A program made the position numbers and the translations under genes. DNA of 64,000 bases from contig NZ_BAAAUN010000001.1 in assembly GCF_039533965.1 (NCBI RefSeq), positions 2,516,950-2,580,949 of the forward strand, in the 5' to 3' direction. How positions within the stretch are numbered: the stretch's first letter is position 1; every line of letters starts with the position of its first letter. Shown here piece after piece: positions 16,545-19,137 of the stretch. The notes below the pieces were generated by a model that was not told the origin of the DNA, did no database searches, and was given only the letters and a program-made list of their open reading frames with translations. This DNA is from Microbacterium luteolum. GTDB lineage: Bacteria; Actinomycetota; Actinomycetes; Actinomycetales; Microbacteriaceae.

Positions 16545-17306
16545 GTGCCGACCAGCTACCTCGCCCCGAAGGGAACACCCGTCACCCTGCTCGAATACGA
16601 GTACGGCGGGGCGACCCTCATCGCCGAGACCTTCGGCGAGGGTGAGCACACGTTCCTGCTGCTGCACGGCATCGGGATGGGCCGCAGCGTCTATCTCGAC
16701 GTGGTGCGCCGTCTCGAGGGGCGTGTCATCGCGCTCGACCTGCCCGGCTTCGGCGAGGCGCCCGAGCCCACCCGGAACCTCACGATGGAACGGCATGCCG
16801 ACCTGGTCGCGGCCTACCTCCGTCACACCGGCGAGGATCCGGTGATCGTCATCGGCCACTCGATGGGGAGTCAGATCGCGGCCGAGCTCGCCGCACGGCA
16901 TCCGTCGCTCGTCGCGAAGGTGATCCTCGCAGGACCGACCGTCGACAAGGCGGCGCGCAACGTCGCCTCCCAGGCGCGGTACCTGCTGATCGACCTGCTG
17001 GGCGAGCGTCCGCTCGTGATCTGGCGCGGCGCACGCGAGTACCTCCGCGGCGGGCCGCACCTGATCCGCAAGATCCGCGCCACGATCGTGCACGAGCCCG
17101 AGGACGCCTTCGCCCGCATCGACTGCCCCGTGCTGGTGCTGCGGGGCGAGGACGATCCGCTCGCGCCGATGAGCTGGTGCCAGGCGATCATCGACTCGAT
17201 CCCCGGCGCCGATCTCGCGGTCATCCCCGACCACGGTCACGGCACCCTGATCACCGACTCGGAGCCGGCCGCCCGGCTGATCCAGCGCTTCGCCGATAAG
17301 CGGTGA
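16545..17306 (+). CDS. Alpha/beta hydrolase
   Basis: 253 residues. LLLHGIGMG supplies the oxyanion strand, VIGHSMGSQIAAELA the nucleophile elbow (GHSMG), LRGEDDPLAP the acid-bearing strand and PDHGHGTL the catalytic histidine, so the Ser-Asp-His triad is complete. It is a cytoplasmic hydrolase of the general fold (esterase, lipase or C-C hydrolase). The GTG start is chosen because of the leaderless promoter immediately upstream. It follows the acylase by 35 bases but has its own promoter. Confidence 0.85.
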   Translation: MPTSYLAPKGTPVTLLEYEYGGATLIAETFGEGEHTFLLLHGIGMGRSVYLDVVRRLEGRVIALDLPGFGEAPEPTRNLTMERHADLVAAYLRHTGEDPVIVIGHSMGSQIAAELAARHPSLVAKVILAGPTVDKAARNVASQARYLLIDLLGERPLVIWRGAREYLRGGPHLIRKIRATIVHEPEDAFARIDCPVLVLRGEDDPLAPMSWCQAIIDSIPGADLAVIPDHGHGTLITDSEPAARLIQRFADKR

Positions 17307-17307
17307 A

Positions 17308-17484
17308 TCAGGGGTAGCCCCGGAACCTGACGCTGTCGGATGCCGAGTCGTCGAGCGCTTTCGACAGCGCCGGGTCCACCGCGAACCCGTCCGGGTCGGC
17401 ACGGCGCGACGACCGCGGCTTTCGCATCAGCATCGCGAACCATGCCGCAGCGAGCACGCCGAGGACGATCAGCAGGGTCTCCAT
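17308..17484 (-). CDS. Small single-pass membrane protein, 58 residues
   Basis: A short gene that ORF length cut-offs would miss. It begins METLLIVLGVLAAAWFAMLM, one hydrophobic helix, followed by a basic stop-transfer stretch (RKPRSSRR) and an acidic, serine-rich cytoplasmic tail ending SVRFRGYP. Third codon positions are strongly G/C as in neighbours. A leaderless promoter (TAGCGT, 6 bases, ATG) precedes it. It is convergent with the alpha/beta hydrolase, one base apart. No family is recognised. Confidence 0.65.
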   Translation of the reverse strand: METLLIVLGVLAAAWFAMLMRKPRSSRRADPDGFAVDPALSKALDDSASDSVRFRGYP

Positions 17485-17496: not shown

Positions 17497-17550
17497 GCGC
17501 GGCGGGGCCATGACGTCCAGGATTCGCCGGATGGTGCGCCCCGCTCACGT

Positions 17551-17631
17551 GCATAATTCAGCCAGAACTGGCTTAAACGCCCGCCATCCGGCCGTTTCGA
17601 GTCACCGCCCGGAGTTCTTGCTGAATTGTGC
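17551..17631. repeat. 81-bp hairpin element, left copy
   Basis: A 19-base arm at 17551-17569 (GCATAATTCAGCCAGAACT) is inverted at 17613-17631 (AGTTCTTGCTGAATTGTGC) with two differences. The 43-base interior has its own small stem (AAACG...CGTTT). The inner arm and part of the loop form the last codons and the stop of the nuclease gene. A second element of the same total length lies at 18618-18698. Confidence 0.8.
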
Positions 17632-18507
17632 GCGCCGACTGCCGATGAACGACGGGCCGAGCGTCTCGATGACCTCCCGCAGCGCCGCTTGCACGGCCTG
17701 CCACGCGCCGAGGGCGTCGGTGGCCAGAGGGCGGATGGTCACATATCCGCGACGGGCGGCCGCGAGGTCGCGTCGCCGGTCCTCCTGCTGCTTCTGCCAC
17801 CCCTCGTGGAATTCCTTGCTGTCGCATTCGATGATCAACCACCCCTCCACGACGAAGTCCACCCGGCCGACACCGGGGATGAACACCTGGGTCTCGAAAC
17901 GGACCCCGATCGTCCGCAGCATCAGGCGCACGAACGTCTCCGGGCCCGACTCGGCGGAGCCGTCGACGAGCGTACGCGTCGGTCGCAGCCGGGACGGCAG
18001 CCCCGCGAAGACCTCGTCCAGCTGAGAGCTCGTCAGCAGGCCGTGGTGCACGAGGCTGTCCAGGGTTGCTACCGCAGCGCGCGGCTCCTGACACCGCACC
18101 GCATGCCGAGCTGCGTCGATCAAGGGCGCGACGTGCAGGAGCTCGGGCAGGGCCGACGAACGGTTCCAGTGATACGTGACCTGCGGAACCTTCGGCGGAC
18201 GCAGCCGAGAGCTGCCGCGCGTGACGAACACGTGCAGGCCCCGGCGCCGGTGGACGAAGACGCCCATCACCGCGAACAGTGACAGACACGTCAACCGCCC
18301 TCCGATCCGGACGGCTTCCACGACGTCCGGATCAACTGCGGCCAGGAGGTAGCGATCGCGTCGGACGTGCTGAAGATGCCCATGCTGGACGGCGAGTGTG
18401 ATCCCGCGGCGCGACAGTCCCTGGTCGAGCAGATCTGCGCGAGTGAAGGCGAGACGCGAATAGGCGGCGGCTGCACGCTGCGGGACGGTCTGGTTCGCTT
18501 CGGTCAT
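17602..18507 (-). CDS. AbiEi-type HTH plus DUF559/Vsr-like endonuclease domain protein
   Basis: 301 residues. The N-terminal 90 residues (AFTRADLLDQGLSRRGI...RDRYLL) look like the winged-helix domain of AbiEi-type antitoxins. Residues 185-285 form a PD-(D/E)xK nuclease of the DUF559/Vsr group: E190 in SGPE, D217 in GRVDFVV, and E227/D229/K231 in IIECDSKEFH, followed by a conserved RRRDLA region. Such proteins are common in actinobacteria, but no function is proven. The final residues AQFSKNSGR are encoded by the arm of the 81-bp hairpin element. Six bases before the ATG a CACACT could be a -10. No toxin partner is adjacent. Confidence 0.8.
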   Translation of the reverse strand: MTEANQTVPQRAAAAYSRLAFTRADLLDQGLSRRGITLAVQHGHLQHVRRDRYLLAAVDPDVVEAVRIGGRLTCLSLFAVMGVFVHRRRGLHVFVTRGSSRLRPPKVPQVTYHWNRSSALPELLHVAPLIDAARHAVRCQEPRAAVATLDSLVHHGLLTSSQLDEVFAGLPSRLRPTRTLVDGSAESGPETFVRLMLRTIGVRFETQVFIPGVGRVDFVVEGWLIIECDSKEFHEGWQKQQEDRRRDLAAARRGYVTIRPLATDALGAWQAVQAALREVIETLGPSFIGSRRAQFSKNSGR

Positions 18508-18617
18508 CAGAGAAGTGTGCGAACAACCGCGTCAGCATGGGCCACGGATCGGGAGATTGTGGATGGGTTCCGGTCGTGCTTGGTCGGTGCAGAATCAGTG
18601 TCGCGGCCAGTCGACGG

Positions 18618-18698
18618 TCACAATTCAGAAAGACTCTCGCGAAATCGGCTACCTGTGGCCAAAGTCGGCCGAGGGACCGAGTTCTTGCTGAATTATGC
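18618..18698. repeat. 81-bp hairpin element, right copy
   Basis: A degenerate left arm at 18618-18635 (CACAATTCAG, then AAGA and CT) and a near-perfect right arm at 18680-18698 (AGTTCTTGCTGAATTATGC) enclose a 43-base interior. It has the same orientation and length as the copy at 17551-17631, so the pair brackets the nuclease gene. It lies 110 bases upstream of that gene's start and 49 bases from the mrp operon end. Confidence 0.7.
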
Positions 18699-18747
18699 TC
18701 GGCGGAGTCCGTCGACCTCGAGGTTCAAACACGGACTGAGAAGAGCG

Positions 18748-19137
18748 CTACCCCGCCCCGGGAGGGGTCTGCTTCGACTCGGCGAGCTCGTCGACCACGA
18801 GCCCCCGCTGATCCGTCGTGCCGTTGCGATACGCCTGACGGCCGACCATGTGCGCCGACAGCGGTGCCGTGGCGAACTGCATCAGCACGATCGGAGCCAC
18901 CAGGACGAGCCCGATCAGGATGCCGCCGACGGAGCGCTGCGACAGTGCGACCGCACCGCAGATGAGCACGAGGCCGAGCACCTGCGGCTTCGTGGCCGCA
19001 TGCAGGCGGGACGGCACGTCGCGGAAGTGCAGCAGGCCGACCGCGGCCGAGAGGCAGAGCAGGGCACCGAGCAGGATCAGCACGAGCACCGCCACATCGA
19101 TCACGGCGTCGGGGATCAGGAGACCGAGCACGTTCAT
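18748..19137 (-). CDS. mnhG: Mrp antiporter subunit G
   Basis: 129 residues with three transmembrane helices, as expected for MnhG/MrpG (PhaG family). The conserved LLHFRDVPSRLHAATKPQVLG block between helices 1 and 2 identifies it. It is the last gene of the operon, overlapping mnhF by ATGA. MrpG is a small subunit needed for assembly of the hetero-oligomeric cation/proton antiporter. The C-terminal 30 residues are hydrophilic. Confidence 0.93.
   Translation of the reverse strand: MNVLGLLIPDAVIDVAVLVLILLGALLCLSAAVGLLHFRDVPSRLHAATKPQVLGLVLICGAVALSQRSVGGILIGLVLVAPIVLMQFATAPLSAHMVGRQAYRNGTTDQRGLVVDELAESKQTPPGAG

Follow-up and report, generated by a model that had tools for sequence, protein, structure and literature searches.

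A nuclease gene bracketed by its own type of palindrome in Microbacterium suggests an undescribed kind of nuclease-and-target-site unit

When a gene lies between two copies of the same palindrome, do the palindromes belong to it? The question is raised by a 64,000-nucleotide stretch of the Microbacterium luteolum genome (the whole of which we call the window), where a gene for an AbiEi-like/Vsr-type nuclease of the DUF559/MTES_1575 kind has an imperfect palindrome on either side. Repetitive extragenic palindromes (REPs) with their REP-associated tyrosine transposases (RAYTs) provide the textbook example of an enzyme whose own palindromes are dispersed through the genome, and the reason for their persistence is still debated. 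The comparisons described here suggest an undescribed kind of nuclease-and-target-site unit: on sequence evidence, the gene and its two palindromes probably form a single unit, a sequence-specific endonuclease that carries its own recognition sites with it.

The nuclease gene (301 aa) occupies 17602..18507 on the minus strand (genome coordinates are window coordinates plus 2516949; G000 denotes the window's own genome). Element 1, to which as a palindrome no strand is assigned, spans 17548..17634, and its core (17551-17631) consists of two 19-nt arms, GCATAATTCAGCCAGAACT (17551-17569) and AGTTCTTGCTGAATTGTGC (17613-17631), enclosing 43 nt; element 2, also unstranded (18615..18701), lies upstream of the gene and has a core (18618-18698, arms 18618-18636 and 18680-18698) equal to it in length and register, whose outer-left arm has diverged further. 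The initial annotation had described two imperfect hairpins of equal length on either side of the gene, with the downstream one fused to it, and both descriptions are borne out: the arm of element 1 codes for the protein's last residues, and the final codons A-Q-F-S-K-N-S-G-R and the TGA stop lie inside the element. Its 19-nt arm is correct for the core; the arm consensus is longer, about 20-22 nt. The arm AGTTCTTGCTGAATT occurs three times in the window with at most three mismatches (0.13 expected; none of 100 shuffles reached three), and across G000 the arm core has 20 matches at up to two mismatches versus 3 for the backward-read pattern. The two palindromes, 83 bp each, belong to a dispersed family, for which we built a covariance model, R1, from 14 elements of G000. 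Both window elements are among these 14, and R1 matches them at G000:C1:2534497-2534583 (71.8 bits) and G000:C1:2535564-2535650 (64.5 bits). With 150 of 8383 candidates scored, it finds 20 places in G000 at E<=1e-3, every one of them on the 3.85-Mb contig; 14 of the 20 were bound to match, being the elements from which the model was built. At E<=0.01 it has matches in 73 of 99 genus genomes and none in the other 26, counts that mix arm types because R1 also picks up related ones.

Bracketing is not peculiar to this locus. In the genus sample, each of the eight closest homologs (one of them the window's own) has R1 elements on both sides, and more distant homologs are flanked by palindromes with other arms, for example CAACTCCTGCAG, CAACTCCGGAGAT, GGGCGAAACTCCTGA, CCCGAACTCCTCCA and GTACCGATTGCAGGA. 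A protein-alignment scan of named genomes yielded 245 loci; we retained the best 80, most of them under a Microbacterium title, and scored 79 of them for two palindromes and the agreement of their arms, with a maximum of 64. A score of at least 50 was reached by 53 of the 79 and at least 56 by 42, compared with 179 and 29 of 948 mismatched controls, in which one locus's 5' flank was joined to another's 3' flank and some pairs share a true arm type. When the mismatched flanks came from proteins less than 50% identical, 64 of 500 reached 50 and 5 of 500 reached 56, against 40 and 32 of 50 real loci. Displaced windows along the same loci never reached 50 (0/70, versus 48/70 at the gene flanks), so the expectation that palindrome copies would cluster around DUF559-type genes holds. 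The bracketed loci share ancestry and are not independent trials; the bracketing pattern is nonetheless real and not due to chance.

Arms agree within a bracket and differ between homologs. Among 40 bracketed loci, mean arm similarity was 2.99 for pairs whose proteins are below 45% identical and 2.39 at 45-50%, then 4.07, 6.79 and 9.18 in the following identity bands and 14.25 above 70% (5 pairs), while interior similarity stayed at 2.3-2.7 up to 70% protein identity and was 3.45 above. Both arms and interiors correlate with protein identity (Mantel rho 0.33 and 0.14, each p about 0.0005), and because interiors do so as well, shared ancestry contributes to the correlation between arm and protein. 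No region of the protein stood out as setting the specificity (rho 0.30 for the winged helix-turn-helix, 0.38 for the nuclease domain, 0.36 for the whole protein). Dispersed copies follow the type of the resident gene, in the one arm type sought: it had 5, 19, 11 and 9 matches in four type-matched genomes (counts that include the bracketing arms; those of G129 are one letter off the pattern) and 0-4 in each of the other 42 homolog-holding genomes, so that it was abundant in 4/4 versus 0/42. The three elements beside the gene in G084 and most of its listed dispersed ones have CAGGAGA arms, with two other types also present; in G033, four R1 matches (best 3.4e-6) outscore the two bracketing elements and so lie at other places.

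The spacing of the arms is as telling as their sequence. Arms in G000 are close to GTGCACAA(T/C)TCAGCAAGAACG and its reverse complement, in elements of 83, 84, 95 or 96 bp. Independently of R1, we measured the distance between anchors, A(C/T)TC(A/C), in arms with at least 15 of 18 positions paired and anchors 24-200 bp apart, a count that excludes anchorless or poorly paired elements (7 from 17 own loci and 6 from 20 G068 loci). Of 145 distinct elements, 143 fall into three classes (26 at 61-62 bp, 97 at 71-73 bp and 20 at 82-85 bp), the other two lying at 113 and 185 bp; 57 of 58 elements at loci found by protein alone fall into the same classes, and the 34 pairs of a direct-repeat control have scattered distances. 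The classes are separated by steps of 10 and 12 bp with interiors nearly free in sequence, which fits two half-sites on the same side of duplex DNA and is not needed by a hairpin loop. Such spacing is expected if the protein reads both arms, and it points to binding of duplex DNA in place of the hairpin substrate that the initial annotation had envisaged. We dropped a description as 7, 8 and 9 helical turns, since how many turns are counted varies with the point of reference; only the steps are measured.

What kind of protein would do this? The best Pfam match, MTES_1575 REase, has an E of 2e-6, and every Pfam match lies under its curated cut-off; the predicted structure (pLDDT, predicted local distance difference test, 91.6) matches AbiEi and Vsr/EDxHD folds in a fold search. 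The label AbiEi-HTH (helix-turn-helix)/DUF559 given at first is therefore upheld by fold and falls short by sequence profile. In the predicted model, the protein joins a putative DNA-binding AbiEi-like half (residues 17-182; 17962..18459, minus strand) to a putative catalytic Vsr/EDxHD domain resembling those of homing endonucleases (residues 187-285; 17653..17949, minus strand). The candidate catalytic residues E190, D217, D229, H234, D247 and R259 are present in 35 of 35 homologs and E227 in 32 of 35. No Pfam transposase matched the protein at E<=1; the nuclease domain filled the fold-library list, and the absence of other families from that list carries no meaning. At the window locus, neither of the two neighbors (an MnhG-like protein and an alpha/beta hydrolase) is an AbiEii partner.

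These two neighbors make it possible to follow one site through the genus. The left marker is a gene for an mnhG-like Na+/H+ antiporter subunit (18748..19137, minus strand; Pfam PF03334, E 3.1e-19) and the right marker an alpha/beta hydrolase gene (16545..17306, plus strand; Pfam Abhydrolase_1, E 8.4e-27), with a 58-codon open reading frame (17308..17484, minus strand) between the hydrolase gene and element 1. The mnhG-like gene is present in 96 of 99 genus genomes, and among the 30 best sites compared, three states are found. Eight hold the nuclease gene with elements (one of the two in G076 is weak), with arm types that are equal within a bracket and different between genomes; two, in G087 and G070, hold a solo element and no nuclease gene; and at 12, where the hydrolase lies within about 320 bp, neither the nuclease gene nor a cognate element was recognized, the element-free sites of G039 and G035 having unrelated inverted repeats. 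At three more the hydrolase is further off, and five showed no gene, no element and no hydrolase. In G087 the mnhG gene is followed by the solo element and then by the window's small open reading frame and the hydrolase, aligned over about 330 bp; its mnhG-side spacer aligns with that of G082, with no clear alignment to that of the window. Either the gene together with one element is missing from G087, or both were added elsewhere. Both gene-less solo elements and element-free sites are thus found at this orthologous mnhG-hydrolase site, in support of the initial annotation's reading.

Dispersed elements at seven loci (L030, L035, L300, L077, L080, L085 and L074) were sought in the other genome, and the region was recovered for L035, L300 and L074. 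The element was kept with a changed arm type at L035/L298, at L300/L299 and for the first element of L074; the second element of L074 is absent at the orthologous place. The changes between two species in place are at L035 1501-1588 (versus L298), L300 1518-1605 (versus L299) and L074 2501-2588 (versus L304), and such sites look as if they were changing specificity where they stand. A supposed switch of length class at an orthologous locus (L028/L081) was dropped, since the two elements turned out, on alignment, to lie to either side of the shared gene. At L078 2588-4305 in G082, a 1.7-kb insert with genes for a sigma-70-like and an NAD(P)-binding protein lies between two elements where L041 of G000 has one; we rejected it as a cassette, as its two elements differ in arm type and the genes are unrelated.

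Arms are better kept than interiors. Over eight orthologous pairs from G000 and G082 (leaving out L028/L081, pairing L032 with the second element of L079, and taking arms over 20 positions), 265 of 320 arm positions are identical (82.8%), compared with 219 of 351 in interiors (62.4%) and 641 of 895 in flanks; an earlier version with nine pairs and arms over 22 positions gave 80.8%, 64.4% and 68.9%. Because non-orthologous interiors aligned by the same method are 62.1% identical, orthologous interiors stand at background and the arms have been kept. When elements of the same genome are compared, in four genomes, mean interior similarity somewhat exceeds that of shuffled sequences, and 5, 10, 8 and 15 pairs surpass the 99.9% level where 0.1-0.4 would be expected. 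Tandem copies give the strongest resemblance, together with the pair L081/L083 of G082, whose likeness runs from one arm to the other and does not extend outside. Tandem elements with similar interiors stand at L132 944-1437, L129 879-1163, L134 962-1190 and L120 864-1125 in G084 and at L080 2501-2740 in G082, probably a sign of local duplication.

Beyond the genus, brackets persist with other arms. Among 28 loci from other genera of the family (one with a cut flank), 11 score at least 54, with brackets at 35-48% protein identity, compared with 19 of 756 mismatched controls. A class-wide draw, in which a homolog at E<=1e-15 turned up in only 25 of the 246 genomes, added 11 of 27 further loci at this score with wholly different arms (the mismatched control covers the 28-locus set only): 4 of 8 in the same genus, 2 of 4 in the same family, 1 of 2 in the same order and 4 of 13 in other orders. 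On balance, and with slightly less assurance than for the unit itself, we favor a class-wide actinobacterial unit, selfish or domesticated, in which an AbiEi-type nuclease with paired inverted half-sites of about 20 bp at helical-turn-spaced distances brackets its gene, scatters solo sites and co-evolves its specificity.

How might such a unit work? Protomers would use the AbiEi-like half to bind both arms, each of about 20 bp, from a single face of the duplex, and would come together by bending the intervening DNA, in the manner of AbiEi antitoxins on their inverted repeats; the Vsr/EDxHD domain may then cut in or beside the palindromic site. If the break were mended from another copy, such homing-type copying could seed and renew sites, and recombination between the two bracketing elements could remove the gene and leave a solo element. 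Binding, cutting and mobility are all inferred. Several observations weigh against this account. A third of the named loci lack a clear bracket, as do most loci outside the genus, and in four genomes rich in elements no homolog reaches E<=1e-40. Seven of the 57 named loci tried (L163, L164, L172, L179, L183, L185 and L206) do not read open; gene loss may outpace site loss, because several of these non-open homologs keep clear brackets. Recent wholesale copying of elements appears to be rare, because most interiors are unrelated, the exceptions being the tandem copies and one old dispersed pair. To these is added the origin-half clustering of elements seen in five of the seven genomes tested, described below.

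The likeness to REPs and RAYTs proposed at the outset is one of logic, and the unit is not one of these. REP/RAYT units (REPtrons) and TIRtrons, as PMC3733652 describes them, likewise carry palindromes or inverted repeats of their own on both sides of the enzyme gene, with dispersed copies that are mainly in convergent or tandem intergenic positions near 3' ends and with different repeats for different enzyme genes; solo and empty sites add to the resemblance. The enzyme here, however, is by predicted fold an AbiEi-like and Vsr/EDxHD nuclease and not a tyrosine (Y1/HUH) transposase, the elements measure 73-96 bp as opposed to the 20-40 bp given for REPs in the same text (PMC3733652), the arm spacing comes in classes about one helical turn apart, and no GTAG or CGTC tag was found by eye in the listed arms. 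The EDxHD homing endonuclease I-Bth0305I, which shares the predicted EDxHD/Vsr catalytic fold, is reported to dimerize on nearly 60 bp (PMC3943268), and from that description our gene differs in lying outside an intron, between two whole sites instead of inside its own site (PMC3943268), and in its AbiEi-like DNA-binding half. AbiEi is reported to bind paired inverted repeats of about 23 bp and to bend the DNA (PMC7319586); residues 17-182 are predicted to have an AbiEi-like fold. Unlike AbiE, our protein has a nuclease domain and its sites are dispersed and on both sides of the gene, with arms much further apart than the AbiE gap of 3 or 13 bp (PMC7319586). Vsr-like/DUF559 and MTES_1575 nucleases, whose Vsr-type restriction-endonuclease fold it shares, are described in passages of PMC12907096 and PMC3710099 either as nucleases of the mismatch-repair type or as one domain within very large conflict proteins, and those passages mention no cognate palindromes. 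Within the accessible open-licence literature, whose scope leaves most subscription papers and preprints outside, no link of DUF559, MTES_1575 or AbiEi nucleases with cognate palindromes was found. Enzyme, element and likely mode of recognition all differ, and defining features of RAYT/REP and AbiE systems fail. Finding REP/RAYT-like logic in an unrelated enzyme, on a site that would be long, double-stranded and governed by distance, would make the idea testable independently. Since the flanks of a gene reveal its site, dozens of enzyme-site pairs from an uncharacterized kind of nuclease would be at hand, a natural collection if the proposal is true, and what AbiEi-headed DUF559/MTES_1575 proteins do can be asked concretely.

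The same protein might instead be mainly a transcription factor, an autorepressor with a regulon whose operators are the bracketing and dispersed elements, with a nuclease domain that is secondary or otherwise used. AbiEi antitoxins are reported to autoregulate through inverted repeats (PMC7319586), one element does precede the gene (as a rule by some 160-450 bp from the matched start), and the arms are conserved at dispersed sites. Yet the other element lies at or after the stop codon, and when 60 dispersed or bracketing elements were placed relative to genes called by a simple program, only 6 proved divergent, with 21 convergent and 24 tandem, poor positions for operators (51 were called intergenic, mostly just after genes, and nine inside genes were set aside). 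With the putative catalytic residues conserved as well, we consider regulation unlikely to be the main role.

Elements of this family might also organize the chromosome, serving the nucleoid or segregation with the nuclease-like protein as a domesticated binder. They concentrate in the origin half in G000, G082, G001, G068 and G070 (15-20 places per clustered genome, 12 in G001; 17 of 18 in G000 and 17 of 17 in G082), the zone in G000 running over G000:C1 1.72-3.71 Mb with dnaA at 2.63 Mb, and their arms are conserved and their positions often so. However, such clustering is absent in G066 and G084 and not clear in G090 and G093, which weakened an origin-domain reading, and 26 of the 99 genus genomes have no R1 match at all; this role therefore seems improbable. 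Clustering around the nuclease gene was not significant in those four genomes either.

Still more doubtful is an element acting as RNA, a bidirectional terminator or stabilizing hairpin that happens to follow genes. Its position mostly just after genes would suit this, and 14 of 14 elements fold better than the shuffle mean (z -1.9 to -7.8), as any palindrome would. Three spacing classes with a free interior and arms that are conserved and matched to one gene family do not, and on these two grounds the hairpin or RNA reading was set aside; at the 10 loci searched, no Rfam family scored above its gathering score and no T-run terminator was called. Least credible of all are passive miniature-transposon relics linked to the gene by coincidence, for despite the solo and tandem copies, the one dispersed pair bounded by arms and the seven loci not reading open, none of 70 displaced windows scored like the 48 of 70 gene flanks, arms are better kept than interiors, and dispersal is type-matched. 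As for the interior that copies of a miniature transposon would share, the tandem copies and L081/L083 are alike there, and other interiors are mostly unrelated.

Three further observations concern the wider gene and element families. A paralog at 24-26% identity in G000 (L025; G000:C1:819049-819732) has palindromes with arms of its own on both sides, at L025 1259 and 2295. Two nuclease homologs with different arms and opposite orientation often stand about 18 kb apart, as in G006, G017 and G061 and at L192/L193, L197/L216, L189/L233, L185/L210, L184/L235 and L231/L236, so that this pairing of sites recurs. And at L149 923-1989 in G068, two elements 959 bp apart flank two small tandem DoxX/MauE-like genes in place of a nuclease.
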